From Roseovarius sp. EL26 (lineage in GTDB: Bacteria; Pseudomonadota; Alphaproteobacteria; Rhodobacterales; Rhodobacteraceae), in the NCBI RefSeq assembly GCF_900327775.1, contig NZ_OUMZ01000007.1, positions 115 to 64,114 of the forward strand: DNA of 64,000 bases. Direction: 5' to 3'. Position numbers and translations under genes: made by a program. Position 1 is the first letter of the stretch. Each line of letters starts with the position of its first letter. Below are positions 41,774 through 48,953 of the stretch, piece by piece. The notes beneath the pieces are model-generated. The model was not told the DNA's origin and did not search any database. It saw only the letters and a list, made by a program, of their open reading frames with translations.

Positions 41774-42655
41774 CTAATTTTCCAACAGGTGTTGAGCGCA
41801 ATTTGACACCTCTTCAGCAACGTTCTGAGGTGGAGATATTTCCATGATCAGCGCTTGGCTGGTTGCAACGGCACCGCCTATAGGGCGCACAAGATTTCCC
41901 TTTTCCAGATCCCGATGCACAAGTGGTGCATGACCGATCAATATGCCTGCGCCAGCGCGTGCCTCTTCCAGCGCCAGACTATAGAGAGAATACTTTGACC
42001 CCATCTGTTCAGGGATAAACCCTTGGCCATGGTTCCGCGCCCAAAGATCCCAATCGCCAGACCAGCTTTCGTCATGGAGCAACATTTGCTGCGCCAGATC
42101 TGCTGGTCGGGTAATTTGCGCCGCCAGTTCGGGTGTGCACACAGGAAAAATCTGATCGTCTGTAAGGATATGTTCGTTTGTAGCCCCGGAGGGTGCGCGA
42201 ATGAACAGGCTGATATCAATCATCTCGCGGTTCAGATTGGGAGGGGTTTCCATCGCCAAAACGGTAAGCCGAGTGCCGGGCATTGCTGCCCGCAGGGCAG
42301 GTAGGCGCGGCGAAAGCCAAAGCTGCGCGACACTGGGCAAGGCGGCGATTGTTACAGTTGGCTGTGCCATCGTGGACCGCAGGGCACGGGTGGCATCGCT
42401 CATCGCATCAAATGCATGGGTGAAATGTGGCTGCAGTTGTTGACCGGCTTCGGTTAACATCACCCCGTGCGCCTTGCGTTGAAACAAAGGTGTGCCGGTC
42501 CAGTCCTCCAGCGCTTTGATATGTTGTGAGATCGCACCGGGCGTGACGCAGAGTTCCTCGCTGGCTTGGGCAAACCCGCCCAATCGGGCCGCCGCCTCAA
42601 ACGCGCGCAGGGCATTGAGGGGCGGGCCTTTGGGGCGGGGTGGGATAATAGACAT
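41774..42655 (-). CDS. LysR-family regulator, GcvA-like
   Basis: 293 residues. The start PPLNALRAFEAAARLGGFAQASEELCVTPGAISQHIKALEDWTG is the GcvA-type helix-turn-helix, and the effector domain has VTIAALPSVAQLWLSPRL. GcvA-type regulators bind sites containing CTAA. Divergent from an SHMT-like gene with a 94-base gap holding a TTAG-N5-CTAA palindrome, so it very likely controls that gene. Its 3' end at 41774 runs toward the Moco operon. Confidence 0.92.
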   Translation of the reverse strand: MSIIPPRPKGPPLNALRAFEAAARLGGFAQASEELCVTPGAISQHIKALEDWTGTPLFQRKAHGVMLTEAGQQLQPHFTHAFDAMSDATRALRSTMAQPTVTIAALPSVAQLWLSPRLPALRAAMPGTRLTVLAMETPPNLNREMIDISLFIRAPSGATNEHILTDDQIFPVCTPELAAQITRPADLAQQMLLHDESWSGDWDLWARNHGQGFIPEQMGSKYSLYSLALEEARAGAGILIGHAPLVHRDLEKGNLVRPIGGAVATSQALIMEISPPQNVAEEVSNCAQHLLEN

Positions 42656-42677: not shown

Positions 42678-42749
42678 ACTCAGATCTAAGATAATCTGGT
42701 TTGCGCCACAGGTCGAGACACTTCAGTGTCGCTGCAAAGGAGATCCATC

Positions 42750-44069
42750 ATGACATTATCCAAGCGAAACTGGGTGCCCGAGCATTGCGAGACGCGTGTA
42801 CAAGACATTGCTAACGCGACTGCGGTCCTGACCGGTTCTGAGACATTGAACCGAATTGATGCGCTGGCCGTGCGCAACAAAGAGATCCACGAACGTGAGT
42901 GTTTCAACCTCAATCCAGCCACCAACGTGATGAACCCACGGGCTGAGGCTTTGCTGTCTTCAGGTATCGGATCACGTCCCTCGCTGGGCTACCCCGGCGA
43001 CAAGTATGAAATGGGGCTAGAGGCGATCGAAGAAATCGAAGTGATGGCCGCAGAGCTTTGCGCTGAAGTGTTCGATGCCAAATATGCAGAGATCCGCGTG
43101 CCCTCAGGCGCGATTGCGAACCTCTATGCTTTTATGACGGTCTGTAAACCTGGTGATACGATTATCGCGCCACCCGCGGCCATTGGCGGGCATGTCACTC
43201 ACCACGGGGCGGGTTGTGCCGGTCTTTATGGGCTGAATGCCATTCCGGCTCCGGTCAGTGCTGATGGCTATACAGTTGATGTCGATGCTCTACGGGATCT
43301 GGCGCAGCAGACCAAGCCCAAGCTGATCACCATCGGCGGTAGCCTGAACCTGTTTGAACATCCCGTGCGAGAGATTCGCGAGATCGCAGATAGCGTTGGT
43401 GCAAAGCTGCTGTTCGATGCGGCACATCAATGCGGGATCATCGCTGGTAAGGCATGGAAAAACCCGTTGGCTGAGGGCGCGCATCTGATGACGATGAGCA
43501 CCTATAAAAGCCTTGGTGGACCAGCAGGCGGGTTGATCGTCACCAATGAAGCGGATCTGGCGCAGCGTTTGGATGAAATCGCCTTTCCTGGGATGACGGC
43601 AAACTTTGATGCGGCCAAATCAGCGGCGCTTGCTGTGTCGATGCTAGATTGGCGTGAACACGGCGAAGACTATGCGCAATCGATGATCCAACTGGCGCAG
43701 GCCTTGGCTCAGGCGTTGGCGGATCTGGGCGAGCCGGTATTTACTGCACCGCAGGGCTTCACACATTCGCATCAGTTCGCGCTTGAAGCGGCCGCTTATG
43801 GCGGTGGTCAGGCTGCTTCCAAAAAACTGCGCAAGGCGGGACTTCTGGCCTGTGGTATTGGCCTGCCAATTGCCGAGGTCGCGGGGGACATGAATGGCTT
43901 GCGGATTGGCACGCCGGAATTGACCCGTTGGGGTATGACAACTGCCCACGCGAAACAATTAGCCGGGCTCATTTCACAAGCGCTTCACTCTGATGCGCCC
44001 GAGGCGCTTTTGCCGGAAGTTTCAGCCTGGCGGCAGGAGTTTACGCAATTGCACTATGTTGTGAGCTGA
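42750..44069 (+). CDS. SHMT-like PLP-dependent enzyme
   Basis: 439 residues from the ATG at 42750, which has AAAGGAG 8 bases upstream. The layout is that of the serine hydroxymethyltransferase group: SSGIGSRPSLGYPGDKYEMG near residue 70, the PLP-contacting Asp223 and His226 in FDAAHQCGIIAG, and the Schiff-base Lys253 in STYKSLGGPAGGL. It differs strongly from GlyA, so it is probably a paralogue that cleaves or makes a beta-hydroxy or alpha-methyl amino acid rather than the housekeeping enzyme. Under likely control of the divergent GcvA-type regulator. Its last 29 bases overlap the 3' end of the convergent glpD gene. Confidence 0.8.
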   Translation: MTLSKRNWVPEHCETRVQDIANATAVLTGSETLNRIDALAVRNKEIHERECFNLNPATNVMNPRAEALLSSGIGSRPSLGYPGDKYEMGLEAIEEIEVMAAELCAEVFDAKYAEIRVPSGAIANLYAFMTVCKPGDTIIAPPAAIGGHVTHHGAGCAGLYGLNAIPAPVSADGYTVDVDALRDLAQQTKPKLITIGGSLNLFEHPVREIREIADSVGAKLLFDAAHQCGIIAGKAWKNPLAEGAHLMTMSTYKSLGGPAGGLIVTNEADLAQRLDEIAFPGMTANFDAAKSAALAVSMLDWREHGEDYAQSMIQLAQALAQALADLGEPVFTAPQGFTHSHQFALEAAAYGGGQAASKKLRKAGLLACGIGLPIAEVAGDMNGLRIGTPELTRWGMTTAHAKQLAGLISQALHSDAPEALLPEVSAWRQEFTQLHYVVS

Positions 44070-45657
44070 TAATATCAGCGATGGCAGTGGTGAGCGCATC
44101 AATCTCGGTCTTGTCCAAACACAGGCCGAGCCGGGTGCGCCGCCACAAAAAATCCTCGGCACTTTGCGTCCATTCATGCGAAATGGACCAACGCACCTCA
44201 CGTTCCGTGATAGTGCCGCCAAAGTTTTGCCCAAGGTCAGAGATGTCAGTGGCATCGCCCAGAACCTCCCACGCCTCTGTTCCATAGTGGCGGATCAGGC
44301 GGTGCGCCCATACGTCATCCAAAAACCGATAATCTGCACGTAAATTGGCCCGCAACTTTGCAACATCACCAACCGGAAAATCACCCCCGGGCAGGGGTGC
44401 GATTTGCGTCCATTCCGCTCCAGCGTTGCTATCGGGTAGCGCGCCCTTGATGTGCTCAAGCGCGGCCTCGGCCAGCTTTCGATAGGTAGTGATCTTGCCA
44501 CCAAAGACATTCAACAGCGGTGCACCGGCTTGATCTTCGACTTTCAAAACATATTCACGTGTTACTGCCGAGGCAGAACTTGCCCCATCATTGTAAAGTG
44601 GCCGCACCCCGGAATAGGTCCAGATGACATCATCGTCTGAGAGAGGTTGCTCAAAATACTTTGATGCAAAATCAATCAGGTATTGTTGTTCCTCGGCGCT
44701 GCATTCGGGCGACGTATCAGGATCAGGATGGTCACTGTCAGTTGTGCCGATCAAGGTGAAATCCTGCTCATAGGGGATGGCAAATATGATCCGGCCATCG
44801 CTGCCTTGAAAGAAATAGCACTTGTCATGCTCAAACAGCTTACGGGTAACGATATGGCTGCCCCGCACCAGCCGGATATTATCGTTGGATTTGCTGTGGG
44901 TGGTGTTTTGAATCACATCCATCACCCATGGCCCGCTAGCATTGACGACCATACGCGAGCGCACCACGCGCTCTTCGCCTGTAGCCTCGTCTAGCAATGT
45001 GACGACCCAGAGGTCACCTTCGACTACCGCCGATACAACCCGCGTCCGTGTCATGATCGCTGCGCCACGCGCTGCGGCATCGCGGGCATTCAGAACAACC
45101 AGCCGCGAATCCTGAATCCAGCAGTCGGAATATTCATAGGCCTGTTGGTATTTGTCCTGTAACGGCACGCCTTCAATGGTGCGGTGCAGATCAAGCGTCT
45201 TTGTGGCGGGTAGAATTTCGCGCCCCCCCAGATGGTCATACATGAACAATCCAAGCCGGATCATCCATGCGGGGCGACGTCCCTTCATCCACGGCATGAA
45301 GAATGACAATAGCTTTGCGGCTGGCGTGCTACTCTCAAACCTCATATCCTTGTGGTAGGGCAGAACAAACCGCATCGGCCAGCTGATGTGCGGCATGTTG
45401 CGCAACAGAACTTCGCGTTCTTTCAGCGCCTCGCGCACCAGACGAATTTCGAAATATTCAAGATAGCGCAGCCCGCCATGGAACAACTTGGTTGAGGCCG
45501 AAGATGTTGCCGAGGCCAGATCGTTCATTTCCGCCAACGCTACGCTATACCCGCGACCGGCTGCATCACGGGCGATGCCGCAACCATTGATGCCACCGCC
45601 AATGACAAAGAGGTCGTAGACGTGTTGCTCGGAGCTGTTCTCAAGGGGATTTGGCAT
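44041..45657 (-). CDS. glpD: FAD-dependent glycerol-3-phosphate dehydrogenase
   Basis: 538 residues. Oxidises glycerol 3-phosphate to dihydroxyacetone phosphate at the inner membrane and feeds electrons to quinone. The FAD fold FVIGGGINGCGIARDAAGRGY, then SSASTKLFHGGLRYLEYFEIRLVREAL and the MPHISWPMRFVLPYHKDMR block are characteristic of aerobic GlpD. No glpK, glpF or glpR is next to it. Convergent overlap of 29 bases with the SHMT-like gene. Confidence 0.95.
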   Translation of the reverse strand: MPNPLENSSEQHVYDLFVIGGGINGCGIARDAAGRGYSVALAEMNDLASATSSASTKLFHGGLRYLEYFEIRLVREALKEREVLLRNMPHISWPMRFVLPYHKDMRFESSTPAAKLLSFFMPWMKGRRPAWMIRLGLFMYDHLGGREILPATKTLDLHRTIEGVPLQDKYQQAYEYSDCWIQDSRLVVLNARDAAARGAAIMTRTRVVSAVVEGDLWVVTLLDEATGEERVVRSRMVVNASGPWVMDVIQNTTHSKSNDNIRLVRGSHIVTRKLFEHDKCYFFQGSDGRIIFAIPYEQDFTLIGTTDSDHPDPDTSPECSAEEQQYLIDFASKYFEQPLSDDDVIWTYSGVRPLYNDGASSASAVTREYVLKVEDQAGAPLLNVFGGKITTYRKLAEAALEHIKGALPDSNAGAEWTQIAPLPGGDFPVGDVAKLRANLRADYRFLDDVWAHRLIRHYGTEAWEVLGDATDISDLGQNFGGTITEREVRWSISHEWTQSAEDFLWRRTRLGLCLDKTEIDALTTAIADIISSQHSAIA

Positions 45658-45942: not shown

Positions 45943-48894
45943 ATGACTGACCTCGCCGCCCAAAGACTTGCCTCTCTCGAAGCAACGCGCAATGGCCCCC
46001 CAGCCCGTACTGCCAACCCGTTCTTCGGTGTTGGTCCGATCACCGATGTGGTCAAGGACGAAGCCGAAGGACGTCAAAACCGTTACGACTTTGATCGTTG
46101 GTTGGAAACCACCTACCGCAAGTTGGACGATACCGGCAAGGATCTGGGTCCTTTCACCACGGCAGAGATCGGTCGCTCGATGCACCGCGGTTACCCGGCA
46201 GACGCAATCTTGCTAGACATGATGCACCATATTCACCGTTATTTCGGTTTCCCGATGTCCAACCAGATGGCGGTTGGTCTGGGCGGTGGTCACAGTGGTT
46301 TTACCGTGGCGATCATGCACCTGATGAACCCCAATCTTGATGGACAAAAACTGTTCGTTGATACACCTGCACCAGAAACTGAAGCGGCCAAGGCCGGTGG
46401 TTTCTTCCGCCAGAGCTGGGGCACGCAGATCGTTGAGATGCAGCGCTTTGCACAAAATGGCCACGACGACAAAGTGGTCTTTGCCGGTGACGAAGGCTCA
46501 ATCCCAAGCGCGGATGAGCTGGACGCAATGGGCATCACCTTGTTTGTGGGTGTTGGCCACGAAACGACAGGTGCCACCACCTACACCGAGGAAGAAGTCA
46601 AAGGCCTGCTCGAATGGCTGGACCGTGATCCAGAAAACCGCCACGCGATGATCGATGCGACATCAATGCTGGGTGCGATGCCATGGTCACAAGACGTTGT
46701 TGACGGGTTTCTGACCAAATGTAACATCTTCACCCCGTTCCAAAAGGCGATCGGTGGGATCTCTGGCTATTTCTTGGCGTCGTTCACGCCAGCGGCAATC
46801 CAGCTGATCGAAGACAACCAAAAAAACCCGGCATGGGCCATCGCGCGTCAGTTGAAGCTGGTTGTGCCAAAAGATGCCAAAAAACCATTGAGCGGTGAAA
46901 AAACCGTTGGCTTGGGCCCGTTCTATGATCCAGCCGCAAACAAAATGATCGGTGGTGTGATCAACACGTTCTCTTCGCTTGCCTTTGCTGAAACTACATT
47001 TGGCTTGCTGCGGGTTGAGAAAAAGTTCGGCGCCTCCAGCGTGATGAACCAGCGTTCTGCTGATAACCGTCAACGCATCAATGACTGGCTGGCGGGTCAG
47101 GACCTGCTGCGTGCCGGTGTTGCAAATGCAGACAAACGGGGTGCTGCTGTGACCCTGCTGGCGGTCAATGACCCCGACATCACCGATGCAGATGTGCACG
47201 CTCGTATCATCGCACGCTCCAAGCAGTTGCTGGGCTACGAAGGCCTGACCCATCCAAATGGCTGGCACGAGGCTGGCCTTGATGCTGCGCGTTACGTCAA
47301 CGCATTCCCTGGCACGCCCGGTGATTACCGCGCATGGATGGGTGGTATTCGTGAGCAAGACGATATCGTCGCGCTGCTTGAGAACATCAGCTACGCCTAC
47401 CTCCGCGCCAAAATTGTTGTTCTGGAAGAGTTGCTGGCCGCAGATGGCACAACCTTTGATGCGCCAGAAGAATCCGGTGCAAATGTCCGCAAGGACGATC
47501 CAAACCGCGCTTACCGTATTCTGATCGCCGATCTGGTTGGCCTGAAGTTCGGTGCTGATGGCGAGCCTGACCCTTCCGAGGTTCAAGCCCATATTGAGGC
47601 CAATGGCGGTACCTTCACCGTTGGCGCATGGGACGGTTCCGACCTGCCAGCCGGTCAGCACTTCTTCTATCAGCCTGACCTCAGCACCAATGAAGAACTG
47701 ACAGCCGCCTGCTGTGGCAACCAGTATGACGCGGTGATCGCAGCGGCGACCTTCTTCCCAGACGGCGCAACCTTCCCCGAAGGCGGCGTGCGTATCGGTG
47801 CCGGCACCGGTAATATGGCCTGCGCTTGCTGGGGCGGCGGTGACGGCGCGGGCGGTTCTGCCCCGCTGATGAACACCCCAAGCTTCAACAGCCGTGCGAC
47901 TGCACAGATGGCAATGAAGGCCCTGCTGAAGGTTATGCCAAACCTCGACGTGGCTGACATGCACGACCGGGTTGTCAAAGGCGACTTTGATACCGGCAAG
48001 CACCTGCGTGACTATCCAACCGAAAAGTTGGAAGGCAAGCGCATGGCCGTGATCAGCTATGGCAACATCGGCCGCGAAGTGGCCAAACTGGCCAAAGCGT
48101 TCGGCATGAGCGTTTCGATCTTTGCCCGTGAAAACCACCGCAAGTGGATCGAATCCGAAGGTTACACCTTTGCCGCAACCCCAGAAGAAGCCGCCGCTGG
48201 TGCCGACGTTCTGTCGCCCCACACTGGTCTGGGTGCAAAGGGTGCCGACGGCACATTCGCCAACGCTGGTCTGGTTGGCGCATCGGTTCTGAACGCGCTC
48301 AATGATGGTGCAATCATCGTGAACTACGACCGTGGTGAAGTGATCGACGCTGACGCGCTGCACGCTGCCATGGACAGCGGCAAGGTCGCCTATGCAGCCA
48401 TCGATGCGGACCTGTTCGTCAACGACGACGGTAGCCTGTTTGGCCCAATGGTGCCGTACCGCCCACTGATCGAAGCCTTCCCTGGCCGTCTGGAACTGCT
48501 GCCACACGCCGCAGCTGATACCGAGCACACCTCGCGTGTGGATGGTGCCAAGCAAGCGGTTGATCAGATCCTGTCGTGCATCCGCTATCGCCACGTCATC
48601 AACTGCAAGGGCGACGTGCCAGCCGGCTACACCAGCGGCGGCGCACAAACCGTGCCAGGTGTTGGCAAGGTATCCGGTTCGGTCATCGCCAATGCGGCAG
48701 CCGATACAGATGCCCTTGGCCGTCTGCGTGATGCGTCGGAAACACTGGCCGCGATCTGGGGCGCGATTGAATCCACCCGCGACCCAATCCGCCGCGCCGA
48801 GCTGATCGCCAGCCACGGCGAAGCCCTGACTTTGGCCGCCAACACCCTGCGCACCGATTGCGACGCGCTGGGTCTGAACGGTGGCTATGCATAA
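45943..48894 (+). CDS. Fusion of a SerC-like PLP aminotransferase and a SerA-like 2-hydroxyacid dehydrogenase
   Basis: 983 residues from the ATG at 45943; an open frame to 45772 adds poorly coding sequence. Residues about 25-400 look like a class V aminotransferase of the phosphoserine type: FFGVGPITDVV at the start, GLGGGHSGFT near 115, and IDATSMLG with FTPFQKAIGGISG, where Lys268 should bind PLP. Residues about 520-890 are a D-2-hydroxyacid dehydrogenase: an N-terminal catalytic lobe, the NAD fold (ISYGNIGREVAKLAKAFG, 704-720), the catalytic Arg797 in NYDRGEV and His855 in LLPHAAAD. SerA and SerC do consecutive steps of serine synthesis, so channelling is conceivable; other substrates are equally possible. 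Proline codons favour CCA, unlike neighbours, which suggests high expression. A 285-base gap to divergent glpD precedes it and a strong terminator ends it. Confidence 0.82.
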   Translation: MTDLAAQRLASLEATRNGPPARTANPFFGVGPITDVVKDEAEGRQNRYDFDRWLETTYRKLDDTGKDLGPFTTAEIGRSMHRGYPADAILLDMMHHIHRYFGFPMSNQMAVGLGGGHSGFTVAIMHLMNPNLDGQKLFVDTPAPETEAAKAGGFFRQSWGTQIVEMQRFAQNGHDDKVVFAGDEGSIPSADELDAMGITLFVGVGHETTGATTYTEEEVKGLLEWLDRDPENRHAMIDATSMLGAMPWSQDVVDGFLTKCNIFTPFQKAIGGISGYFLASFTPAAIQLIEDNQKNPAWAIARQLKLVVPKDAKKPLSGEKTVGLGPFYDPAANKMIGGVINTFSSLAFAETTFGLLRVEKKFGASSVMNQRSADNRQRINDWLAGQDLLRAGVANADKRGAAVTLLAVNDPDITDADVHARIIARSKQLLGYEGLTHPNGWHEAGLDAARYVNAFPGTPGDYRAWMGGIREQDDIVALLENISYAYLRAKIVVLEELLAADGTTFDAPEESGANVRKDDPNRAYRILIADLVGLKFGADGEPDPSEVQAHIEANGGTFTVGAWDGSDLPAGQHFFYQPDLSTNEELTAACCGNQYDAVIAAATFFPDGATFPEGGVRIGAGTGNMACACWGGGDGAGGSAPLMNTPSFNSRATAQMAMKALLKVMPNLDVADMHDRVVKGDFDTGKHLRDYPTEKLEGKRMAVISYGNIGREVAKLAKAFGMSVSIFARENHRKWIESEGYTFAATPEEAAAGADVLSPHTGLGAKGADGTFANAGLVGASVLNALNDGAIIVNYDRGEVIDADALHAAMDSGKVAYAAIDADLFVNDDGSLFGPMVPYRPLIEAFPGRLELLPHAAADTEHTSRVDGAKQAVDQILSCIRYRHVINCKGDVPAGYTSGGAQTVPGVGKVSGSVIANAAADTDALGRLRDASETLAAIWGAIESTRDPIRRAELIASHGEALTLAANTLRTDCDALGLNGGYA

Positions 48895-48921: not shown

Positions 48922-48953
48922 AAACCCGGCAGTTCCGACTGCCGGGTTTTTTT
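48922..48953 (+). terminator. Strong intrinsic terminator of the fusion gene
   Basis: AAACCCGGCAGT and ACTGCCGGGTTT form a perfect 12-base stem with a TCCG loop, followed by further T residues. It lies 28 bases after the stop of the 983-residue fusion gene. Confidence 0.92.

Follow-up and report, generated by a model that had tools for sequence, protein, structure and literature searches.

The DNA analysed here, a stretch of 64,000 nucleotides from Roseovarius sp. EL26 (contig NZ_OUMZ01000007.1, positions 115 to 64,114; hereafter the window, numbered from its first letter), carries a solitary gene whose product joins an aminotransferase and a dehydrogenase in a single chain. The gene and its immediate features are as follows.

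45943..48894, plus strand: fused aminotransferase-dehydrogenase gene, an uninterrupted open reading frame of 983 residues with known full-length relatives
45943..47472, plus strand: SerC-like aminotransferase half, residues 1-510, recognised by profile matches; mean column identity 77% over 14 rows
47473..48891, plus strand: D-2-hydroxyacid dehydrogenase half, residues 511-983, recognised by domain matches; a putative hydroxypyruvate reductase, as read from the kinase linkage of its relatives
48922..48949, plus strand: intrinsic terminator, a 12-pair hairpin followed by a T run, read directly from the sequence

A first-pass annotation, made from the letters alone, had described a gene standing alone with its own terminator, and this is borne out by the hairpin and by the upstream neighbour (44041-45657), which lies on the opposite strand. 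The terminator scanner reported only the minus-strand reading of the hairpin, and the plus-strand reading was made by eye. An in-frame ATG further upstream would give an alternative product of 1040 residues; 45943 is the better start because locus L018 has an in-frame stop 8 codons before the equivalent position. Proline is encoded by CCA in 24 of its 46 codons, compared with 190 of 815 in the other called genes of the window, a lean that the first-pass annotation read as a possible sign of high expression. At Rfam gathering scores the window holds only 5S rRNA and tRNA, with no riboswitch upstream of the fused gene, and none was found in seven relative loci (L020, L031, L032 and L033 were outside that search).

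The 983-residue fusion is genuine and not an assembly chimera, as full-length relatives that are about 58-97% identical exist in other alphaproteobacteria. Closely related full-length copies occur in Roseovarius albus (97%), Ruegeria atlantica (83%) and Roseibium album (81%). Two further copies are damaged, by decay or assembly error: that of Labrenzia sp. DG1229 (L020:8001-11368) is split over two frames and one in a metagenome-assembled genome (L019:1081-4032) contains one in-frame stop. The gene is real and conserved, but scattered in distribution. Surveys with the whole protein matched 3 of 385 genomes of the class (E up to 1e-30), 5 of 394 of the family (two full-length, three with the dehydrogenase half only) and 8 of 398 of the phylum (E up to 1e-25; full-length in four). 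In the family of genome G832, 48 of 346 genomes gave 51 matches (E up to 1e-60), 23 full-length and 28 to the dehydrogenase half only. These four sets overlap, three of them including the genome from which the window comes. In a plasmid collection, 58 of 72,556 records matched; 31 span 80% or more of the query, 24 only the dehydrogenase half and three residues 1-578. Many annotated full-length plasmid records call the matched gene "NAD(P)-dependent oxidoreductase".

The aminotransferase half is nearly always found fused. A profile of this half matched 3 of 362 class genomes, all of them with already-known fused genes, and nothing lay between these and E 1e-12, so that no intermediate forms appeared in this set. 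A tblastn search for it near 29 loci carrying only the dehydrogenase half found none. The exception is a 582-residue gene on Ensifer adhaerens plasmids (L148:3995-5743, plus strand), present in three near-identical records, which ends inside the dehydrogenase half; nothing of that half remains in the next 4 kb.

Residue equivalences in both halves were derived from alignments, and conservation was counted in a 14-row alignment. The residues of interest in the aminotransferase half are the following.

46183..46188, plus strand: His81-Arg82, equivalent to E. coli SerC His41-Arg42; invariant in 14 of 14 rows
46744..46746, plus strand: Lys268, the expected pyridoxal 5'-phosphate (PLP) lysine, equivalent to E. 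coli SerC Lys198 via SerC_2; invariant in 14 of 14 rows

The first-pass annotation had joined SerC-like and SerA-like fold families in this protein and had named Lys268, Arg797 and His855 as apparent catalytic residues; profile matches to both halves confirm the folds, and each of the three residues is invariant. Single-sequence scores for the aminotransferase half are low: the NCBIfam phosphoserine transaminase model PRK03080 matched residues 176-490 with E 2.3e-12 (46.6 bits, cut-off 477), TIGR01365 matched with E 1e-9 (about 38-41 bits, cut-off 448.2), and Pfam gave no aminotransferase match. Profile-profile comparison with SerC_2, a profile of the eight usable sequences from 11 SerC_2 loci, aligned 381 columns with 98.8% probability (E 7.5e-17, 24% identity), which answers the concern that this half might lack a PLP fold. 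The same comparison with seven other class-V proteins of the genome, the class-V aminotransferase of L050 and a serine hydroxymethyltransferase (SHMT)-like protein of the window gave a probability of at most 1.43%. By its profile, this half is a member of the SerC family and of none of the other class-V families tried. A PDB search with the profile returned three matches (best E 0.34), no transaminase among them.

The PLP-site residues Trp159, Thr208, Asp238, Lys268, Asn341 and Thr342 correspond to E. coli SerC Trp102, Thr153, Asp174, Lys198, Asn239 and Thr240, and all are invariant; this mapping is transitive via SerC_2, and its E. coli-to-SerC_2 step is weak (54% probability). Because these residues and the His-Arg pair are invariant, the half should bind PLP and react. 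SerC His41-Arg42 has a role in phosphate binding. Of the other SerC substrate residues, His328, Arg329 and Arg335 align ambiguously, while His81 and Arg82 are retained. With this ambiguity and the weak mapping step, serine and phosphoserine are not separable as substrates by sequence alone.

In the dehydrogenase half, the following residues bear on function.

47740..47751, plus strand: Ala600-Ala601-Ala602-Thr603, aligned with SerA Arg60-Ser61-Arg62-Thr63
48124..48129, plus strand: Ala728-Arg729, with Ala aligned with E. coli SerA Asp181
48331..48333, plus strand: Arg797, catalytic Arg, equivalent to SerA Arg240; invariant in 14 of 14 rows by alignment
48505..48507, plus strand: His855, catalytic His, equivalent to SerA His292; invariant in 14 of 14 rows by alignment

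This half matched PF02826 (2-Hacid_dh_C) with E 8.5e-26 (90.8 bits, cut-off 25.1) and the phosphoglycerate dehydrogenase (PGDH) model TIGR01327 with E 2.9e-21 (75.9 bits, cut-off 454); it also matched 2-hydroxyacid dehydrogenases of the PDB and, by hhalign, the genome's own paralogues (99.7%). SerA Arg60 is a substrate-site residue with a role in phosphate binding. At the equivalent position, 600, the rows carry Ala (11), Val (2) or Thr (1), followed at 601-603 by an Ala-Ala-Thr that all 14 rows share. Ala728-Arg729 suggests NADP(H) as the cofactor.

PdxB models also match the dehydrogenase half (1.8e-14), E. coli SerC is annotated as serving vitamin B6 precursor synthesis and PdxA is present, which together would allow PdxB-like oxidation of 4-phosphoerythronate followed by transamination by a SerC (PdxF) activity. 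We give this hardly any credence: the PdxB scores lie under that of PGDH and far under the cut-off, the distribution (3 of 385 class genomes) is scattered for an essential pathway, and the kinase linkage described below speaks against it.

The best named models, PGDH and phosphoserine transaminase, point to phosphorylated serine metabolism, and the first-pass annotation had offered a channelled bypass for serine of this kind. It had advised looking for separate serA and serC: the genome carries both, full-scoring and side by side on another contig (serC 619.7 bits, cut-off 448.2; serA 659.2 bits, cut-off 454). With this pair present, no SerC or SerA cut-off reached by the fused protein, and SerA Arg60-Ser61-Arg62 replaced by three alanines, the bypass lacks support. 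A second, channelled system working between phosphoserine, 3-phosphohydroxypyruvate and 3-phosphoglycerate in either direction, which the retained His-Arg pair and the fusions of the corresponding enzymes in oomycetes and brown algae would favour, is quite improbable for the same reasons and because a kinase would make no sense beside a product that is already phosphorylated.

The kinase in question is a glycerate 2-kinase of the MOFRL type. At L134:4558-7014 (minus strand), the dehydrogenase half runs on into such a kinase in one chain. The kinase part scored 256.3 bits against PF13660 and 123.5 bits against PF05161; with the NCBIfam glycerate 2-kinase models it reached 205 and 158 bits, under their cut-offs of 550 and 670. 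In genus g915, the dehydrogenase and kinase parts lie in one chain or directly adjoin in all five matching genomes (L134, L141-L144), with dehydrogenase-kinase open frames of 820-834 residues. By sequence, this chain is a second fusion involving the dehydrogenase family of the fused protein. "Glycerate kinase" is annotated under the match in three of four Pseudochrobactrum plasmid records. A kinase also lies downstream of stand-alone dehydrogenase halves, 3 nt after the half in L125, with 25 nt between the matches in L128, and at 69 nt in L132 and 735 nt in L133; the dehydrogenase-half tree shows L125 and L128 as near copies. The L133 dehydrogenase is sister to seven fused rows with 100/100 support, on a branch flagged as long, and is 71.5% identical to that of L050 and 56.5% to that of the window.

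The kinase-linked rows retain the residues of the fused protein, namely Ala600-Ala601-Ala602-Thr603, Asn649, Ala728-Arg729, Arg797, Asp823 and His855, in five of five, and SerA Arg60 is gone from these five as from all 14 rows of the alignment. Moreover, kinase remnants begin 19 nt past the fused stop in L105 and L107 (E down to 3e-21), two of the 34 fused loci in which up to 1.5 kb per locus was searched. The same search gave one weak upstream match (E 0.037), and shuffled queries gave none.

The MOFRL kinases characterised so far all convert glycerate to 2-phosphoglycerate (PMC2063504). From the kinase linkage of its relatives, the dehydrogenase half therefore most likely reduces hydroxypyruvate to D-glycerate.

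We propose, with a probability of about 55%, that the fused protein is a bifunctional enzyme of a serine-to-glycerate route. The SerC-fold half, with PLP on Lys268, would transaminate L-serine to hydroxypyruvate, with a 2-oxo acid as the amino acceptor; the dehydrogenase half, through Arg797 and His855, would reduce hydroxypyruvate to D-glycerate, probably with NADPH; and a glycerate 2-kinase encoded elsewhere in the genome would convert D-glycerate to 2-phosphoglycerate. The fusion would hand on hydroxypyruvate without release, and the order of the domains fits the order of these reactions. Glycine and one-carbon units (from betaine, sarcosine or C1 compounds) would be the likely material feeding in through serine. 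Of the two steps, the one to glycerate has the firmer support and we consider it likely. The serine step depends on it, and we favour it by a smaller measure. The predicted substrates, direction, cofactor, channelling and setting build on what the sequences show: the fusion, both folds, the conserved PLP and dehydrogenase residues, the loss of Arg60 and the kinase linkage of relatives. The alternative in the first-pass annotation, that the protein transaminates and reduces some other 2-oxo acid, was close to this proposal, in which that acid is hydroxypyruvate.

The same anatomy would serve serine synthesis in the reverse direction, from D-glycerate through hydroxypyruvate to L-serine, for which the plant glycerate pathway is reportedly a precedent. 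This is very improbable, since Ala728-Arg729 suggests NADP(H), which would favour reduction, and serine is already supplied by serC-serA.

Several observations weigh against a serine-to-glycerate enzyme. The kinase link consists of stand-alone relatives and of remnants in only 2 of 34 fused loci, and the two are close kin: since the dehydrogenase halves of L105 and L107 are 92% identical, their remnants are probably one event. None of the 35 fused loci has an intact kinase within 8.5 kb; in L104, one starts at the edge of the locus. The kinase was found in 48 of 48 genomes tried, here at C5:231056, and its presence is uninformative because it occurs alike with (24) and without (24) the fused gene. 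The retained His-Arg pair would suit phosphoserine as well. The catalytic SerA Glu269 falls on the variable column 828 (D1 E4 A2 T3 S3 G1), around which the alignment carries an insertion; because of this variability the catalytic triad appears incomplete by alignment, and another acidic residue, such as the invariant Asp823, may stand in for Glu269. Additionally, L050, L105 and L111 already carry another class-V aminotransferase, and many fused loci have no betaine- or sarcosine-type neighbour, their neighbourhoods being varied. The count of such neighbours given below is no more than a hint, being circular: the queries were picked from those same loci.

In L050, L105 and L111, in one Sinorhizobium group, genes for a class-V aminotransferase, a CitE-type lyase, malate-CoA ligase beta, a CoA-ligase alpha subunit and a BCCT transporter precede the fused gene on one strand, and they appear to be serine-cycle-type genes. 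Model scores were taken from L050 only: the aminotransferase is best matched by BhcA (596.5 bits, cut-off 650), the ligase beta and alpha models were passed (725 against 604 and 442.6 against 336), and the transporter scored 633 against 650 with the betaine model and 533 against 407.55 with the family model. The fused gene of L105 belongs to another subfamily (its dehydrogenase half is 65% identical to those of L050 and L111 and 90-92% to those of L045 and L107), yet the neighbours are mutually 89-99% identical, so this gene was apparently exchanged for another at the same site.

Genes for betaine, sarcosine, dimethylglycine or carnitine lie within 8.5 kb of the fused gene in 8 of 35 loci, and the same queries matched 0 of 29 loci with only the dehydrogenase half. 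L021 has a betaine-type ABC transporter directly upstream of the fused gene, and L066 has one 6 kb upstream; L047 carries a dimethylglycine/sarcosine-type dehydrogenase, L109 soxB, soxA, soxG and folD, and L035 a carnitine 3-dehydrogenase (601.9 bits, cut-off 592). Nearest-neighbour clustering found no neighbour recurring across distant fused loci apart from the Sinorhizobium cluster, a flavin mononucleotide (FMN)-dependent dehydrogenase in two lineages and ABC transporter genes. The FMN-dependent enzyme, an L-2-hydroxyacid dehydrogenase, adjoins the fused gene in L020, L022, L096 and L098; between the two distant lineages it is 85% identical. One neighbour within the window is given for context only.

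42726..44069, plus strand: SHMT-like gene, which adjoins the fused gene in L018 too (85% identity)

Its product scored 292.9 bits against an SHMT subfamily cut-off of 335 and 186 against 650 for fluorothreonine transaldolase; a LysR-type gene (41774-42655, minus strand) accompanies it.

Stand-alone dehydrogenase halves have surroundings of their own. In L032, L124, L129, L131 and L132 they sit in a recurring catabolic cluster (most names by reading), which in L132 includes GMC-type and aldehyde dehydrogenases, a D-amino-acid-dehydrogenase-like protein and an HpaI/GarL-type aldolase. At L033:8722-16850, one lies within an apparent resorcinol/hydroxyquinol degradation cluster (names by reading). 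The two halves might share a different 2-oxo acid, for instance a longer one bearing a hydroxyl group or a charge, that arises from another amino acid and is reduced to a D-hydroxy acid; sulfopyruvate/cysteate was likewise considered as substrate and not adopted. The varied catabolic clusters with HpaI/GarL-type and class II aldolases, the aromatic cluster of L033 and the mere 24% identity to SerC are in line with this, but the linkage of five dehydrogenase relatives to a glycerate 2-kinase, by fusion or as a neighbour, and the kinase remnants after the fused gene point to glycerate. We consider this alternative unlikely, if worth keeping in mind.

As to the origin of the fusion, the dehydrogenase-half tree (62 rows: 33 fused, five kinase-linked and 24 other) does not unite the fused rows in a single clade, and rows with the dehydrogenase half only are interspersed among them. 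This tree would agree both with loss of the aminotransferase half and with fusion on several occasions. The dehydrogenase half occurs in three partner states (none, aminotransferase, glycerate kinase); on the proposed reading, adjacent pathway steps would have been fused on either side of it.

Taken together, we tentatively suggest, short of even odds, that a SerC-fold serine transaminase and an NADPH-dependent hydroxypyruvate reductase form one undescribed module, spread in alphaproteobacteria and often plasmid-borne, which would pass on hydroxypyruvate internally and channel betaine-, sarcosine- or C1-derived carbon to central metabolism. If the serine-to-glycerate assignment is right, the "NAD(P)-dependent oxidoreductase" of plasmid annotations catalyses two steps in the use of serine, the SerC-type fold gains a new substrate, and rhizobia and roseobacters possess a compact serine-to-glycerate step that would offer a natural component when serine-cycle pathways are engineered.

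No account of a bacterial aminotransferase-dehydrogenase fusion was found in open-licence PMC papers (subscription journals and preprints were outside this scope). The aminotransferase half has the fold, PLP residues and His-Arg pair of SerC_2 (TIGR01365), but is about 125 residues longer and only 24% identical; the dehydrogenase half has the 2-hydroxyacid dehydrogenase fold, Arg and His of SerA (TIGR01327), but lacks Arg60, Asp181 and Glu269. In the serine cycle, serine-glyoxylate aminotransferase (SgaA) and hydroxypyruvate reductase (Hpr) are followed by glycerate 2-kinase, and the proposed conversion of serine through hydroxypyruvate to D-glycerate, then handled by the same kinase, resembles that sequence of steps. 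SgaA and Hpr are, however, two separate proteins, SgaA belonging to another class-V subfamily, whereas the Roseovarius protein is a SerC-fold domain fused to a putative reductase, and no alignment was obtained between its aminotransferase half and the SgaA/BhcA-type protein of L050. The closest fusion in architecture is that of PGDH with phosphoserine aminotransferase (PSAT) in oomycetes, brown algae and Thecamonas, which is reported to catalyse the first two steps of phosphorylated serine synthesis (PMC2705460, PMC5715807). It too has both enzyme types, D-2-hydroxyacid dehydrogenase and SerC-type aminotransferase, in a single chain, but with the dehydrogenase N-terminal and the aminotransferase C-terminal, the reverse of the Roseovarius order. 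Unlike the PGDH-PSAT fusion, the Roseovarius protein has lost Arg60 and stands in a genome that retains separate serC-serA, and it probably runs in the opposite direction.

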